DNA of 20,848 nucleotides, taken from positions 1 through 20,848 of IMG/VR virus record IMGVR_UViG_3300033388_000898, one strand, 5' to 3'. The stretch is from a virus. Shown here in pieces: positions 5,743-17,541 of this stretch; position 1 is the stretch's first letter, and each line of letters begins with the position of its first letter. The notes beneath the pieces are model-generated. The model was not told where the DNA came from. It saw only the letters and a program-made list of their open reading frames with translations, and searched no databases. The position numbers were made by a program, and so were the translations under genes.

Positions 5743-7806
5743 ATGGGTATTTTTGACATTTTCAGTAACAAAAAGAACGACGAGCCAGTTAAGGAGAAAT
5801 CTAAACGTATAGGAAAGAAAGTTATTAAACAGCAACTTTTTAGGTTTAATAAGCAGATAGATAACTGGAAGCTAGGTATTAATTGCTTTGAGGACGTACA
5901 CCACCCGACAACGGAAACGATTATTTCAGTTTATAACGACGTAGTTATAGACGCTCACTTATCCGCAGCACTAGACAACAGGATTAGTAAAACTAGTAGT
6001 AAAGATTTTAAAATAGTCGATGAAAAAGGGGAAGAGTTGGACGAAACGGCAATTTTTCAAGCTCAATGGTTTAGAGACTTTATGCGTTATTCGTTAGAAT
6101 CAAAATTCTACGGTTATAGCCTTGTTCAGTTTGGGGATAGAGTAGCGGACGGTTTTAAGATGGTTAAATTAGTGCCGAGACAATACGTTTACCCACAAAA
6201 GCAAGCGGTAAGGACTAGCCCACAAAATACAGTCGATTTAATTTCATTTGATAAAGGACAATATAAACCTTGGACTATTGGAGTAGGCAGACCGGACGAC
6301 ATAGGCCTATTAATGAAAGCCTCACCACTTGTGATCTATAAAAAGACGGCTTTAGGCGCTTGGTCTGAATTTACCGAGTTATTCGGCTCGCCTTTTAGAT
6401 TTGGTAAGACAGATGTGAGGGACGAGGCTCTTAGAGATAATATGTACGATATGCTGGACAATATGGGGCGTAATGCTTTTGGTGTTTTTCATACAGAAGA
6501 CGAGCTAGAGTATATTAAAGACAATCAAACGGACGCGCACCACGTTTTTGACGAGTTAATAGAGCGAACTAATAGCGAGCTAAGTAAGTTAATATTAGGG
6601 TCCACTATGACAATGGACGACGGTTCTAGTAGGTCGCAAAGTGAAGTACATGAAAGAACTACGGGAGCTATTGAAAAAGAGGACGCTATATTTATGTCTG
6701 AGGTCGTTAATAAACAGCTTATTCCTTGGTTAAATACTTATCATGGGTTTAACATTCAGGGAAAATGGGTATTTGACGAGACCGAGAACATGGGTAAGGT
6801 GGAGCAGTTCAAAATTGATTTAGAGCTAGTAAAAGCCGGGTTTAATGTTCCAAAGGAGTACTTTACAGAAACCTACGGAACGCCTATTGATGAGAGTATT
6901 GAGCCGGTAGAAACTACTAAAGACTTAAACAACCTACTAGAAGGGTCAAAAAAAAAAGCCTTTTCGCTAACAGCTTACGAGAATTTCATAGGCTTAGATA
7001 GCTGCGATATTTGCAACACTATTGATTTAAGCGACACGCCGGAGCCTACTTGGTCCGACGCTTTTATTAATGAGATTATTACGGGCGTTCATACAGGCCT
7101 TTACACATTACAGAACTTACCAGAGAGTTTATATTTAGAGACAGCGGACCGCTTAGTTAAGTCTATGCTAGCGGGAGTAGCTGAGTCTAAAGTTATACCT
7201 ACAATAGCGGACCCGAATTTTATTAGAGCGCTTAGAGATAATGCCTACGTATTTAGTGGGGCTAAGACTTTCCAAGAAGTTAAAACAATGTCCGATTTTC
7301 TAATAGACGAAAACGGGGACTTTAGGAGCTTTGCAGACTTTAAGAAAAAAGCTGAGGCTACTTTCGACCAATTCAATAAACATTGGTTACGTACTGAAAT
7401 GACTCAGGCCCACAACACAGCCGAGGCGGCTAGTAAGTGGCAACAGTTCGAGGAAGAGAAAGAAGTATTTCCAATGCTACGATATGACACGGCGGGGGAT
7501 GAGCGGGTACGGTCTAGTCATAAAGCACTAGACGGGGTAATTAAACCGGTAGGGGATAAATTTTGGGACACTCACGCGGCGCCTAATGGTTGGAATTGTA
7601 GATGTGAATTACTACAGGAGAGCGAGGCGGTAGAGACACCGGACGGGGATATAGAGGCGCCTAAAGACATTCCGGAAAGTATGCAATTTAATCCAGGAAA
7701 GCAAAAGGTTTTATTTAGCCCTGAGCATCCTTATTTTGTGGTAGACGACCAATTTAGCGAGTTAAGGGATAATAATTTTAACTTACCTGAGCCGCCAAAT
7801 GAGTAA
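5743..7806 (+). CDS. Portal protein (DUF935/Mu gp29-like) fused to MuF head-morphogenesis domain
   Basis: A 687-residue protein combining two functions that Mu encodes separately (gp29 and gp30). Residues about 25-400 match a DUF935-type portal, the dodecameric DNA gate (AALDNRISKTSS near the start, then WSEFTELFGSPFRFGKTD, and LGSTMTMDDGSSRSQSEVHE). Residues about 530-640 are a MuF domain: RTEMTQAHNTAEA near 550, DERVRSSHKALDG at 586-598 and the signature PNGWNCRC at 614-621 with Cys619 and Cys621. MuF proteins sit in the prohead and assist assembly or are ejected with DNA. The tail after the motif is short, with no extra toxin domain. It overlaps the next gene by 8 nt. Confidence 0.9.
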   Translation: MGIFDIFSNKKNDEPVKEKSKRIGKKVIKQQLFRFNKQIDNWKLGINCFEDVHHPTTETIISVYNDVVIDAHLSAALDNRISKTSSKDFKIVDEKGEELDETAIFQAQWFRDFMRYSLESKFYGYSLVQFGDRVADGFKMVKLVPRQYVYPQKQAVRTSPQNTVDLISFDKGQYKPWTIGVGRPDDIGLLMKASPLVIYKKTALGAWSEFTELFGSPFRFGKTDVRDEALRDNMYDMLDNMGRNAFGVFHTEDELEYIKDNQTDAHHVFDELIERTNSELSKLILGSTMTMDDGSSRSQSEVHERTTGAIEKEDAIFMSEVVNKQLIPWLNTYHGFNIQGKWVFDETENMGKVEQFKIDLELVKAGFNVPKEYFTETYGTPIDESIEPVETTKDLNNLLEGSKKKAFSLTAYENFIGLDSCDICNTIDLSDTPEPTWSDAFINEIITGVHTGLYTLQNLPESLYLETADRLVKSMLAGVAESKVIPTIADPNFIRALRDNAYVFSGAKTFQEVKTMSDFLIDENGDFRSFADFKKKAEATFDQFNKHWLRTEMTQAHNTAEAASKWQQFEEEKEVFPMLRYDTAGDERVRSSHKALDGVIKPVGDKFWDTHAAPNGWNCRCELLQESEAVETPDGDIEAPKDIPESMQFNPGKQKVLFSPEHPYFVVDDQFSELRDNNFNLPEPPNE

Positions 7807-8236
7807 AAAACTATCCCCCCAACTAAAAAAAGCCCAGGCTAAAATGAAGCTGCAAACTAAAGCTATTCTAGCCGTAGCAGCTAACGAGGCGGTTAACCAC
7901 TTTAAAGCTAACTTTAAGGTAGGCGGGTTTGTAGATAGGTCAGTAGAGAAGTGGAAAAGGAGGAAAGGAAACAAGGACCCAGGGCGGGGGATTTTAATAG
8001 GTAAAGGCTCAGGACGGTTAAAGCGCTCTATTAAACGCTCAAGCCTAAGTGCTAAAAGGGCAGTGATAGGAGTAAGCGGTAGCCCTATTAAGTATGCAAG
8101 CGTTCACAACTTCGGGCTTAGGTCCGGTAGAGGTAGAGGCTTTACAATGCCACAACGGAAATTTATGGGGGAGAGTCATATGCTTAGTAAAAAAATAAGT
8201 AGACTAATCAAGCGACGTATAAAGAAAATACTTTAA
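7799..8236 (+). CDS. Virion morphogenesis/tail completion protein (Mu gpG-like)
   Basis: A 145-residue, very basic protein of the phage virion morphogenesis family (Mu gpG, P2 gpS-like). Recognisable parts are the N-terminal NEAVNHFKANFKVGGF with DRSVEKWKRRK, the central LIGKGSGRLKRSIK, and YASVHNFGLRSGRGRGFTMPQRKFMG near the end, where the xHNFG and MPxRxFMG motifs are characteristic. Such proteins act at the head-tail neck or in tail completion. Its ATG overlaps the portal stop region, suggesting translational coupling. Confidence 0.85.
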   Translation: MSKKLSPQLKKAQAKMKLQTKAILAVAANEAVNHFKANFKVGGFVDRSVEKWKRRKGNKDPGRGILIGKGSGRLKRSIKRSSLSAKRAVIGVSGSPIKYASVHNFGLRSGRGRGFTMPQRKFMGESHMLSKKISRLIKRRIKKIL

Positions 8237-13423: not shown

Positions 13424-13591
13424 GTGGATAAGTTAGAGAAAATAGCTAAAAAGTATTTCAACAGGTCGGAGGTCGTTTTTATGACCTCCGACGGGTTGGC
13501 TTTTTTAGATATTAATTTCGCGAAACGCCACGCACTCAAAAACGGCTTAGTATTAAAAGAATATAAGAAACCTAAAAAAGCTAAAAAATAA
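13424..13591 (+). CDS. Small conserved-type protein between capsid and sheath genes
   Basis: A 55-residue protein read from the GTG at 13424, two bases after the capsid stop, with the stop overlapping the sheath ATG (TAATG). It reads KIAKKYFNRSEVVFMTSDGLAFLD...FAKRHALKNG and ends in a Lys-rich tail (KKPKKAKK). The TSDGxxF...AxxHA pattern is familiar from small proteins next to capsid genes in Bacteroidota phages, but I know no proven function. The basic tail suggests nucleic-acid or capsid-interior contact. The tight overlaps on both sides and the conserved-looking core support it as real. Codons 15-23 also form a strong RNA hairpin. Confidence 0.65.
   Translation: MDKLEKIAKKYFNRSEVVFMTSDGLAFLDINFAKRHALKNGLVLKEYKKPKKAKK
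13465..13492 (+). promoter_or_regulatory. Perfect 10-bp hairpin within a coding sequence
   Basis: GTCGGAGGTC (13465-13474) is the exact reverse complement of GACCTCCGAC (13483-13492), around an 8-base, T-rich loop. A T6 run follows at about 13501-13506, eight to nine bases after the stem, too far for a normal terminator. A GC-rich stem this long in an A/T-rich frame, 40 bases after the capsid gene, could slow transcription or protect the capsid mRNA 3' end. Confidence 0.6.
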
Positions 13592-14766
13592 TGGCACTAA
13601 ATAAGGTTATATTTAACGTAAACACGGCCGGCTTAGGCACTCCTTTACCGAGTAAGGACCATATAAGCGGAATTGTGTATTACAACAACACTCTACCGAG
13701 TGGTTTCGCGGTTTCCGACCGTATTAAAACTGTATTCAGTTTAGCAGGCGCGGAAGCTTTAGGAATTATAGAGGGTAGCGCGGCACATGGTACCGAATGG
13801 TACCACATTAGAGAATTTTTCGAGAAGCAACCAGACGGCGAGCTTTGGATAGGTTATTTTGCGGTACCAGTAGGAGCGCCGGACTTTTTAGAGGTTAAAA
13901 CTATGCAAGACACGGCCCTAGGAACTATTAGACAAGTAGGCGTTTATTTTGTAGCTGCGGCTTTTGTCGATGCTCAAGTAAGTGCATTACAAGCGGTAGC
14001 TACCACTTTAAAAGCTGAGTCTAAACCACTTCAATTATTGTACGGTCCAGACATTAGCGGAACTAGTGACTTATCTACTTTGTCAGATCAAACGCTTTTA
14101 ACAGCGCCTAATGTTTCGGTATGTATCGGACAGGATGGGGCGGGAAAAGGAGCGGCTTTGTTTATTTCAACAGGTGATTCGATTACAGATTTAGGGGCAA
14201 AACTTGGAGCGGTTTCCGCTGCAAACGTTAACGAGTCAATTAGTTATTACGAAAAGTTCCCAATGGTAACAGACGGGACCGAGTTTGACGTTGCTCATTT
14301 TGCAAACGGCGACGCTGTAGCATTAGCCGCCACAGCACTAGTTGAGGCAATCGACGACAAAGGTTATTTATTCATGGTTAAAGAGGTTGGATTTTCTAAC
14401 ACTTTTAACAATGACTCGTACACCTCGGTAGCGATTACTAACGACCTTTCGACTATTGAGAATAACAGAACAATTGATAAAGCTACTAGAAACCTGCGTA
14501 TATCTATTGTTCCTAAATTAGGTAGCCCTTTGAGGGTTAATGCAGACGGTACACTTAGAGAGGACACTATTAAGACTTTCAAAGCTTTAGCAGACCGAGA
14601 ACTTTCCAGTATGGAGGGCGCGGGAGAGTTAAGCGCTTACGAGGTTATTATTAACGCTAATCAAGACGTGGTTACTAGCGGGCAGTTAGAAATGACGGTT
14701 AAATTAGTACCGGTAGGAGTGGCTAGGGAAATTATTATTAACATTGGATTTGTTCCAAATATATAA
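13591..14766 (+). CDS. Tail sheath protein (DUF2586-like)
   Basis: A 391-residue sheath protein, the contractile outer tail tube. It begins MALNKVIFNVNTAGLGTPLPSKDHISGIVYY, and the C-terminal domain holds the most recognisable stretch: DATRNLRISIVPKLGSPLRVNADGTLRED-like strands, then FKALADRELSSMEGAGELSAYEVIINANQDVV and VPVGVAREIIINIGFV. The ending is characteristic of DUF2586 sheath proteins of Bacteroidota phages. It is followed eight bases later by the tube gene, the usual sheath-tube order. Shorter than T4 gp18 because the outer receptor-like domains are absent. Confidence 0.87.
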   Translation: MALNKVIFNVNTAGLGTPLPSKDHISGIVYYNNTLPSGFAVSDRIKTVFSLAGAEALGIIEGSAAHGTEWYHIREFFEKQPDGELWIGYFAVPVGAPDFLEVKTMQDTALGTIRQVGVYFVAAAFVDAQVSALQAVATTLKAESKPLQLLYGPDISGTSDLSTLSDQTLLTAPNVSVCIGQDGAGKGAALFISTGDSITDLGAKLGAVSAANVNESISYYEKFPMVTDGTEFDVAHFANGDAVALAATALVEAIDDKGYLFMVKEVGFSNTFNNDSYTSVAITNDLSTIENNRTIDKATRNLRISIVPKLGSPLRVNADGTLREDTIKTFKALADRELSSMEGAGELSAYEVIINANQDVVTSGQLEMTVKLVPVGVAREIIINIGFVPNI

Positions 14767-14774
14767 AATAAGAT

Positions 14775-15203
14775 ATGCCAGATAACACACCATTAGTAAA
14801 CGGACAAGCATACGCATACGCGGATATAGTTGTAACGGTTTTGGGTTCGCCCTTAGCCGGTATTACTTCTATTAAGTACTCAGACACGCAAGAAATTACA
14901 GAAAACTATGGACAGGGGAGGTTTCCAGTGTCTAGGGGTTTAGGTAAAATTGAAAGCGAGGCGACTATGACAATAGACCGGGCGGAATTAAACGCCTTAA
15001 TAGCAGCGTCAACAGGTAACAGGCTGCAAAATATCGGCGAGTTTGATATTACAGTAAGTTACGTACCTAGCGCGAGCGCTCCGGTAACGGACATAATTAG
15101 AAATTGTAGATTTAAGAACACGCCAAGCGGCGGCGACGAGGGTGATAGCTCAGTTATGGCCGAGCTAGAGCTAGCGGTATCCCATATTAATTGGGCGACA
15201 TAA
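14775..15203 (+). CDS. Tail tube protein
   Basis: A 142-residue inner tube protein. It starts with a Pro/Asp-rich arm, then VNGQAYAYADIVVTVLGSPLAGITSIKYSD, a tube-family beta sheet, and the GQGRFPVSRGLGKIESEATMTIDRAELNAL segment typical of contractile tail tubes, which expose a helix and beta strands to the DNA channel. The close follow-on to the sheath and the terminator at 15250 mark it as the last gene of the capsid-sheath-tube transcript. High confidence from order, length and pattern. Confidence 0.8.
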   Translation: MPDNTPLVNGQAYAYADIVVTVLGSPLAGITSIKYSDTQEITENYGQGRFPVSRGLGKIESEATMTIDRAELNALIAASTGNRLQNIGEFDITVSYVPSASAPVTDIIRNCRFKNTPSGGDEGDSSVMAELELAVSHINWAT

Positions 15204-15249: not shown

Positions 15250-15279
15250 AAACCCTGGGCTTAAAGTCCGGGGTTTTTT
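15250..15279 (+). terminator. Rho-independent terminator after the tube gene
   Basis: AAACCCTGG (15250-15258) pairs with CCGGGGTTT (15268-15276, one G-U pair), leaving a loop of about nine bases, and T continues to 15279. It ends the capsid-sheath-tube transcript and sits immediately before a -7 box for the next unit. Confidence 0.8.
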
Positions 15280-15281
15280 GC

Positions 15282-15289
15282 TATCTTTG
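15282..15289 (+). promoter_or_regulatory. -7 box TATCTTTG for the tail chaperone unit
   Basis: TATCTTTG is a full match to TAnnTTTG and the same octamer as at 134-141. No TTTG sits 19 bases upstream, since that spot is in the terminator hairpin. Transcription would start near 15295, which supports the ATG at 15314 rather than the earlier in-frame ATG at 15278. Confidence 0.5.
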
Positions 15290-15313: not shown

Positions 15314-15613
15314 ATGGCAAAAGTAAACGAAAAAGAATTAAAAGAGAAGTACGGAAAAGTTTTTAAATTAGACATTCCAACGGATAACGGGGAAAAAGTT
15401 CTTTATTTAAGGAAAATCGACCGGTTAACCTATAAGGCGGCTATGTCAATGATGGAAAAGGACGAACTAGAGGCCTCGGCTATGATTCTAAGGGCTTTAA
15501 CAGTTCACGGAGATGCTGAGGAAATTATTAACGAATTTGACGACTTGAGAGTAGCGGGGTCTTTACTAGTTGAGGTAATCGGCACCAGGACGGGAAACGT
15601 AGCAGTGCTTTAA
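15314..15613 (+). CDS. Tail assembly chaperone, short form (G-like)
   Basis: A 99-residue protein. It begins MAKVNEKELKEKYGKVFKLDI and contains VLYLRKIDRLTYKAAMSMM and a helical DELEASAMILRALTVHGDAEEI section, the pattern of Bacteroidota phage tail chaperones. Such proteins coat the tape measure during tail assembly and are absent from the virion. I chose the ATG at 15314 because the frame's earlier ATG at 15278 lies upstream of the predicted transcript start. The last five codons overlap the -1 frame and contain the slippery sequence, so most ribosomes give this form. The gene is a separate transcription unit between two terminators, just before the tape measure. Confidence 0.7.
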   Translation: MAKVNEKELKEKYGKVFKLDIPTDNGEKVLYLRKIDRLTYKAAMSMMEKDELEASAMILRALTVHGDAEEIINEFDDLRVAGSLLVEVIGTRTGNVAVL

Positions 15614-15620
15614 GAGCACT
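15592..15620 (+). promoter_or_regulatory. Programmed -1 ribosomal frameshift site
   Basis: The heptamer GGGAAAC (15592-15598) sits in the zero frame as G GGA AAC, the canonical X XXY YYZ form (lambda uses GGGAAAG). After a 5-base spacer, AGTGCT (15604-15609) pairs with AGCACT (15615-15620); the 5-base loop carries most of the zero-frame TAA stop (15611-15613). The -1 frame is open from 15574 to 15852. Confidence 0.8.
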
Positions 15621-15855
15621 AGAAAAAACGGATTTATCAACAGCTAACAAGGTGGGCGGGTTAGATGTATCTAACTTTTATGACGCTAGCCTTAAAGAGT
15701 ATAGCATTGATAACGACGAGGGCGCCCAATGGGACGCGCTTATTAGGTACCATTTCAAGACCGACCCGACTAACCTAGAGGACGAGCCTTATTTTAAGCT
15801 TTGCGCTCAATTAGAGTGGGTTATTAGGCAGGAAAACGAGAAGTACAAAAACTAG
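15598..15855 (+). CDS. Tail assembly chaperone extension (GT-like), made by -1 frameshift
   Basis: Entered by slippage at 15592-15598, this frame adds 85 residues to the first 95 of the short form, giving a 180-residue fusion. The junction reads TGN then RSSALRALEKTDLSTANKV, a plausible continuous helix. The rest (FYDASLKEYSIDNDEGAQW, HFKTDPTNLEDEPYF, QLEWVIRQENEKYKN) matches what is expected of the T extension that recruits the tube protein. A GTG at 15652 could only start an incomplete 67-residue version, so frameshifting is the better explanation. In long-tailed phages this protein pair lies directly before the tape measure, as here. Confidence 0.72.
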   Translation, partial: RSSALRALEKTDLSTANKVGGLDVSNFYDASLKEYSIDNDEGAQWDALIRYHFKTDPTNLEDEPYFKLCAQLEWVIRQENEKYKN

Positions 15856-15859
15856 GACT

Positions 15860-15888
15860 AAAGGGGCTAATCTAAGCCCCTTTTTTTT
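15860..15888 (+). terminator. Rho-independent terminator after the chaperone unit
   Basis: AAAGGGGCT (15860-15868) is perfectly complementary to AGCCCCTTT (15875-15883) around a 6-base loop, and the T-run continues to 15888. It starts five bases after the chaperone stop codon, separating it from the tape measure. It overlaps a -7-like box (TATCTTTA, 15888-15895) that ends five bases before the tape measure ATG. Confidence 0.85.
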
Positions 15889-15900
15889 ATCTTTAAGGTT

Positions 15901-17541
15901 ATGGCAGAAAAGACCACCTATGTAATTGAGTTAAACGATAAACTCAGCCCAGGATTAAAAAAAGCCACGGCTAAGGCGTTAGGTCTAGATAAAGCTATGG
16001 GGGGCGTAGGTAAAAAGGCTAAAAAGTCTAGTGGTGGCATTAATACTCTAGGTACAAGCATAAAAGGGCTAGTAGGCCCGTTAGCTTTAGCGGCTGCGGG
16101 AATGAAAGCTTTCCAGTTTGCTAGCGAGTCTATAGCGGCGGCTAGAAAATTCGAGAGTTTAACTAATGCTATTAACTTTGCTAGTGGCTCCATTGAGGAG
16201 GGCGCTAAGACAATGGACTTTTTAAGGCAAAGGTCAAGACTATTAGGGACTGATTTACTAGCGAGTACAGAGGGGTTTAAAACTTTATCCGCTGCTATGT
16301 TAGGTAGTAGTTTAGAGGGGCAGGCGACTAAGGATATTTTCGACGGGGTACAGGTTGCAGCTAGCGCTATGGGGTTAAGTAGCGACCAAGCTAAAGGGAC
16401 ATTCTTAGCCCTCGGGCAAATAATGGGTAAAGGCAAGGTACAAGCGGAGGAGCTTAGGGGGCAAATTGGGGAGCGTATCCCTGGGGCGTTCAATATAGCA
16501 GCTAGGGCTATGGGTGTAACTACTCAAAAGCTCGATAAAATGTTAGAACAGGGCCAGTTATTAGCTGAGGACTTTTTACCTAAATTTTCTAACGAATTAA
16601 AAAAGACTTTCGGAAAAGCTTTACCAACAGCGGCGGAAAGCGCACAAGCTAAATTCAACAGGTTTAATAATACTATGTTAGAGTTAAAGCTCACGCTAGG
16701 AAACGCTTTAATGCCTGTTATAAATAGAACAATGACAGCTTTCAAGACCTTGATTAACTTCTTAAAAACTAACTCCGGCGTTATAATGTCGGAAATTATT
16801 AATCCAATAAAAAGCGCCTTTTTAGAGGTGCGAGATATTTATTTAGTAGTGTTTCAAGAACTAGCTAGCGCTTTAGGTTTCGCGGGAGACTCTACAGCCG
16901 CGTTTATCAAGACCATGCAAATACTAGGAAAAGTAGTTAAATTTACTTTAGGTGTTGTAAAACTACAAATCAAAGTAGTCGCTACTTTATTTAGGGTGTT
17001 AATTAAAGCTTTCTCGGGTATATTCCAATTTTTAACTAGTCCAATAGAGACAGCTAAAACAGCCCTTTTAAAGTTTGCAAATTTCTTTACTGGGATTTTC
17101 TCAGGAATAAAAGGAGTTGTGCAAGGCGTGTTAGATTTTGACATTAATAAAATAAAAGAGGGCTTAAAGACAATTAAAGAGGAGGGTTTAAAAGCAGCGG
17201 TAAAAATAAAGCAAAAAGTAGAAGGTTTTGTATTTAAAGCTCCGGAAACTTTAAGCGCGGGAGTTAAAAAAGATAGAGATTTTAGCGATGTATTAAAGCA
17301 ATCCACAGGAGGAGCGGCGGGAGGTAGTGCAGCGGCGGGAGCTTTAGCCGGTAAAAAATCCACCTCTTTAACAGGAGTTAAAAGCGGACGGCCTACACAT
17401 ATCAACATAGACATAGGTAAGTTAATAGAAAACTTTAACATAACTACGCAGAACATGGAGGAGACTACTAGCAAGGTAGGCGACAAAATTAGCCAAGTAC
17501 TACTTAGCGCGGTTAATAATGTAAATAACATAGCTCAATAA
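15901..17541 (+). CDS. Tail tape measure protein
   Basis: A 546-residue tape measure that fixes tail length and lies in the tube. Residues about 80-270 match the tape-measure N-terminal domain: AARKFESLTNAINFASGS, TDLLASTEGFKTLSAAMLG, GTFLALGQIMGKGKVQAEELRGQIGERIPGAF, and GNALMPVINR later. Hydrophobic stretches occur near 55-72 (LVGPLALAAAGMKAF) and 340-380 (LGKVVKFTLGVVKLQIKVVATLF), as expected for proteins that form a membrane channel during injection. Ala/Lys-rich helices fill the rest, and the C-terminus is Gly/Ala-rich then Asn-rich. At about 0.15 nm per residue the tail would be near 80 nm (inference). It begins just after the terminator and -7-like box; its stop overlaps the next ATG (TAATG). 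Confidence 0.88.
   Translation: MAEKTTYVIELNDKLSPGLKKATAKALGLDKAMGGVGKKAKKSSGGINTLGTSIKGLVGPLALAAAGMKAFQFASESIAAARKFESLTNAINFASGSIEEGAKTMDFLRQRSRLLGTDLLASTEGFKTLSAAMLGSSLEGQATKDIFDGVQVAASAMGLSSDQAKGTFLALGQIMGKGKVQAEELRGQIGERIPGAFNIAARAMGVTTQKLDKMLEQGQLLAEDFLPKFSNELKKTFGKALPTAAESAQAKFNRFNNTMLELKLTLGNALMPVINRTMTAFKTLINFLKTNSGVIMSEIINPIKSAFLEVRDIYLVVFQELASALGFAGDSTAAFIKTMQILGKVVKFTLGVVKLQIKVVATLFRVLIKAFSGIFQFLTSPIETAKTALLKFANFFTGIFSGIKGVVQGVLDFDINKIKEGLKTIKEEGLKAAVKIKQKVEGFVFKAPETLSAGVKKDRDFSDVLKQSTGGAAGGSAAAGALAGKKSTSLTGVKSGRPTHINIDIGKLIENFNITTQNMEETTSKVGDKISQVLLSAVNNVNNIAQ

Follow-up and report, generated by a model that had tools for sequence, protein, structure and literature searches.

The window discussed here, meaning the whole stretch of DNA that was analysed, is an IMG/VR record of 20,848 bases that carries head and tail genes of the contractile-tail type (Table 1). 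Judging from these genes, it comes from a phage with a contractile tail that is related to Winoviridae, and the host is probably a member of Bacteroidota, since the nearest isolates, as ranked by the tail sheath, are Winoviridae phages of Flavobacterium (40-43% identity). Between the probable tail tube gene and the tape measure gene lies a pair of overlapping open reading frames, G in the zero frame and T in the -1 frame, which are the subject of this analysis.

Table 1. Features of the window and, in the last three lines, the corresponding sites in three isolate records.
Feature	Position	Strand	Details and basis
Terminase_3; Portal_Mu fused to Mu F; major head protein; baseplate hub proteins	within window		
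Tail sheath (DUF2586)	13591-14766	+	profile matches
Tail protein, probable tube	14775-15203	+	phrog_4579
Terminator-like hairpin upstream of the chaperone cistron	15250-15276	+	terminator scan
TATCTTTG, fitting the Bacteroidota -7 promoter element TAHHTTTG at every position	15282-15289	+	consensus from PMC6847099
Zero-frame ORF, putative G-type tail assembly chaperone	15314-15613	+	99 aa; stop TAA 15611-15613
Predicted GT fusion via -1 shift	15314-15855	+	180 aa
Slippery heptamer G_GGA_AAC	15592-15598	+	in phase; next two bases GT in all relatives
-1 frame extension (T-type domain)	15598-15855	+	85 aa; stop TAG 15853-15855
Hairpin, 6-7 bp, 5 nt past the heptamer	15604-15620	+	UAA in loop; stable form shared with relative L010 only
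Terminator-like hairpin between T stop and tape measure gene	15860-15883	+	terminator scan
Tape measure protein (TMP_3)	15901-17541	+	PF20155, 6.8e-30
A_AAA_AAG site, pippi8-1 (L005)	7185-7191		
A_AAA_AAG site, FPSV-S1 (L006)	7185-7191		
A_AAA_AAG site, Peternella_1 (L007)	8010-8016		

A preliminary description of this DNA had pointed to a GGGAAAC heptamer in phase with a 99-codon reading frame, to a -1 frame that stays open for another 85 residues, and to predicted products of 99 and 180 residues, and all of this is borne out, coordinates included, by our check of the sequence and its translation. Namely, the zero frame, read from its ATG, ends in ACG GGA AAC GTA GCA GTG CTT TAA, which places the stop 12 nt past the heptamer, while the predicted fusion consists of 95 + 85 residues joined at TGN/RSS. 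The main ORFs of the window hold 67 in-phase heptamers of the X XXY YYZ type. GGGAAAC is the only one that lies within 30 nt of the stop of its own ORF, and it also has the longest -1 opening among the 67, 85 codons as compared with 58 for the runner-up.

The pair is flanked exactly by two of the three strongest terminator-like sites of the window, which are the top two on the list returned by the scan, and the TATCTTTG element, which matches the consensus of the Bacteroidota -7 promoter element (PMC6847099), is found 24 nt upstream of the chaperone ATG. Most relatives have counterparts of both terminators and, between the upstream one and the nearby ATG, an element resembling TAHHTTTG. This arrangement suggests that the chaperone cistron may be a transcription unit of its own inside the tail operon, in which case the tape measure gene would be transcribed separately or by read-through. 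Past the second terminator, at 15888-15895, a further element, TATCTTTA, ends 5 nt short of the tape measure ATG, and relatives repeatedly show TA-TTT elements of a similar kind at this place. If TATCTTTA were a promoter, the tape measure transcript would be nearly leaderless.

Searches of G against Pfam, PHROGs and NCBIfam, and of T against Pfam and, within the fusion, against PHROGs, returned no named chaperone family. In particular, Pfam and NCBIfam gave nothing above their cut-offs, and PHROGs gave phrog_19076 (function unknown) together with weaker matches to other families of unknown function, and nothing else. For fold prediction, the alignment rows were those of the window and of IMG/VR sequences. 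The predicted fold of G (pLDDT 82) is most similar, among solved structures, to the uncharacterised 3fgx (TM 0.70). At lower ranks, and with weak E-values, the fold search also listed the HK97 tail assembly chaperone 2ob9 (TM 0.41-0.44) and YqbN 3klu (TM 0.46), and the predicted fold may thus be called weakly chaperone-like. The model of the T domain is of low confidence (pLDDT 65), and the fold search with that model gave no match.

Strong evidence on how the two frames are expressed comes from relatives. These were collected by protein similarity only, with the fusion and its alignments as query, which yielded 11 distinct loci; loci obtained from a scan for the GGGAAAC pattern were left out of the count because there the heptamer itself had been the query. 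Searching the phage record collection with the fusion by tblastn gave no relatives, and neither did a search of bacterial genomes. All 11 relatives carry GGGAAACGT, in all 11 the zero frame terminates exactly 12 nt past the heptamer (at TAA in 10 and at TAG in one), and all 11 have a -1 extension of 85-87 residues. What is more, the extension is protein-coding, with an identity of 44-73% across 15 relatives, and the GT directly after the heptamer (15599-15600 in the window) is invariant in the group, the zero-frame codon there being GTA or GTG. Codon usage was analysed in the window and the 11 relatives, i.e. 12 sequences with an effective number of 9, with M and W columns left out. Amino acids are invariant in 51 columns, and in only four of these is a single codon used throughout, namely GGA, AAC and CGT at the junction and one distant GAG. 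Synonymous identity, as a ratio of observed to expected, amounts to 2.58 for the heptamer codons, drops to 1.72 over the four codons that follow and that extend into the stop, and is 0.88, or background, at those of the 3' arm of the hairpin listed in Table 1; the selected signal therefore reaches from the heptamer to the stop but ends before that arm. Three features are under selection: the heptamer, its distance to the stop and the -1 reading frame. At its conserved core the signal consists of GGGAAACGT and a stop at +12. As a separate observation, a human-gut phage contig, MT835523 (L008), has at about 7170-7730 a G-like ORF ending in ..AAFISKA* and a T-like -1 frame (FYQQSIEEYSS..). Its junction has no X XXY YYZ heptamer, and the shift may be at T_TTT (GCT TTT ATC).

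We believe, with a probability of roughly 93%, that the locus encodes the tail assembly chaperone pair of a contractile-tail phage, probably of Bacteroidota, made by means of programmed -1 ribosomal frameshifting. On comparative grounds, frameshifting of the lambda G/GT kind is strongly supported. In this reading, the majority of ribosomes would decode G_GGA_AAC in the zero frame and terminate 12 nt further on, yielding the 99-residue G, while a minority would slip back by one base at the heptamer, with the P-site tRNA re-pairing on GGG instead of GGA and the A-site tRNA on AAA instead of AAC, and would then bypass the stop in the -1 frame and produce the 180-residue GT fusion. That such slippage takes place, how efficient it is, and which roles G and GT have, we infer. 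In lambda, the tape measure protein is the binding partner of G and the tube subunit that of T (PMC5009743). By analogy, G would coat the tape measure protein here as well, with the T part of the fusion recruiting the tail tube subunit, and for this reason the ratio of G to GT would matter for assembly. The same binding roles in the window phage are suggested by the position of the genes and by the predicted fold of G.

What, if anything, stimulates the shift? The preliminary description had proposed a complete signal in which a 6-bp hairpin, following the heptamer after a 5-base spacer, acts as the stimulator. The hairpin itself is there and its arms are exact (AGTGCT 15604-15609, AGCACT 15615-15620). 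The description had also placed most of the zero-frame stop in the loop; the stop does lie there, but the loop TTAAG holds the whole of it, and in the minimum-energy fold (-7.6 kcal/mol) an additional U.G pair leaves a loop that is exactly UAA. For the 32-nt piece, 5 of 200 shuffles fold as well as the real one, but wider stretches give a z of only -0.3 to -0.7. We give somewhat less than even odds to the view that this hairpin is a genuine stimulator in the window phage and its nearest relative, with the stop in the loop coupling termination to unfolding. The 5-nt spacer lies inside the usual range of 5-9 nt between heptamer and structure (PMC5009743). In addition, L010, the closest relative, retains the hairpin with one compensatory change (U-A to C-G) and two extra pairs, reaching -12.4 kcal/mol. 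When codons are redrawn with the -1 protein and the stop kept fixed, 0.8% of the randomised sequences fold as stably as the real one in L010, but 18% do so in the window. Over 17 members, pairable positions are marginally in excess (79 of 102, as against 72.3 in the randomisation that preserves the -1 frame, p 0.023), whereas the total energy is not significant (p 0.13). In seven members, there are more cells with changes on both sides than in shuffles (1/500), but not more pairs of that kind (48/500).

That said, the stable hairpin does not extend to the group. Equivalent positions in the other members pair weakly or not at all. What is more, in the 26 nt after the heptamer no member besides the window and L010 folds below -3.2 kcal/mol, and all of them nonetheless retain the heptamer and the stop. 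RNAalifold found no consensus structure for seven members, and the 3' arm, as noted above, shows no synonymous constraint. A downstream structure conserved together with the heptamer was thus not found, and the proposal of a complete signal with a hairpin stimulator is not supported. As for the related suggestion, a ribosome terminating at the stop would, as a matter of geometry, indeed open the hairpin, the stop being in the loop, but this would be specific to two phages and lacks comparative support. On this evidence, the hairpin is no part of the conserved signal and at most a local enhancer. Upstream stimulation by a Shine-Dalgarno-like sequence was set aside, because the bases 5' of the heptamer differ among relatives.

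Among the relatives, neither an upstream element nor a conserved stimulatory structure was identified. One could argue that the phages of this group shift frame with no help from a conserved RNA structure or a Shine-Dalgarno stimulator, and that the constant 12-nt gap between heptamer and stop, together with the invariant GT, belongs to the signal itself, the hairpin being a local elaboration in two phages. We consider this unlikely. Were it true, a signal based on stop distance would operate on ribosomes from a phylum in which mRNAs have no Shine-Dalgarno sequences.

Other explanations of the two frames fare considerably worse than programmed frameshifting. Could the overlap be incidental and T be translated on its own, by ribosomes that reinitiate past the G stop? 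One GTG (15652) is available in the -1 frame of the window, but T has no conserved start codon, and two relatives (L011 and L002) have no ATG, GTG or TTG anywhere in T. Moreover, the -1 frame is conserved from the heptamer itself onwards, ahead of any start, and the codons of the heptamer do not vary, so that we regard reinitiation as highly improbable. Slippage of the transcribing polymerase, rather than of the ribosome, would likewise join both frames. However, runs of only three bases, be they G or A, fall short of what RNA polymerase slippage needs, and a conserved X XXY YYZ phasing bears the signature of a ribosomal event, which makes this alternative less probable still. Finally, in a single metagenomic contig an indel of one base would look just like the split ORF, but the frame breaks at the same codon in all relatives, which come from different samples and conserve both frames, and a sequencing error or a decaying gene can therefore be practically dismissed.

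Programmed frameshifting in the tail chaperone genes of dsDNA phages forms a known family (Xu, Hendrix and Duda 2004, as cited in PMC5009743). As in lambda gpG/gpGT, whose heptamer is GGGAAAG, the window has two overlapping ORFs directly 5' of the tape measure gene, an X XXY YYZ heptamer in phase with G and close to its end, and a -1 extension that has no start of its own. The window differs from lambda in that its heptamer ends in AAC rather than AAG and in that its phage has a contractile tail, and the library searches gave no sequence link between its G and T proteins and those of lambda. The very same heptamer has been reported at the same gene pair in Burkholderia phage KL1 (PMC3483164), Caulobacter phage Colossus (PMC3556154) and the haloarchaeal virus HCTV-1 (PMC5009743), although the hosts differ and, in KL1, the heptamer lies immediately upstream of a TGA stop (PMC3483164) instead of 12 nt before it. 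The mechanism is consequently not of a new kind, GGGAAAC having been reported earlier for tail chaperones; the present case stands out by its likely host group, by a stop distance strictly fixed at 12 nt and by the lack of a conserved stimulator structure.

Closer at hand, the Winoviridae phages pippi8-1 and FPSV-S1 (Flavobacterium; sheath identity to the window 40-43%) and Peternella_1 (Winogradskyella; 25%) share the gene order of the window, and their -1 extension has a homologous, though shorter, T core, such as NALLRYHFKIDPETLSDEDW. Their G proteins show no similarity to that of the window detectable by tblastn, and no terminators were found around their chaperone cistron. In contrast to GGGAAAC with a stop at 12 nt, all three use A_AAA_AAG followed by one sense codon and then the stop, i.e. 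3 nt later. The frameshift is unannotated in all three records: in that of pippi8-1, part of T appears as a separate hypothetical protein, while those of FPSV-S1 and Peternella_1 have nothing there. Two papers on Bacteroidota phages do not discuss this frameshift. The comparison thus allows an annotation gain, T not being recorded as part of a fusion in these three genomes, and it adds a well-supported tail-chaperone frameshift in Bacteroidota-type phages. What is more, it separates what selection keeps, namely the heptamer, the GT and the stop at +12, from what it does not, namely the hairpin.
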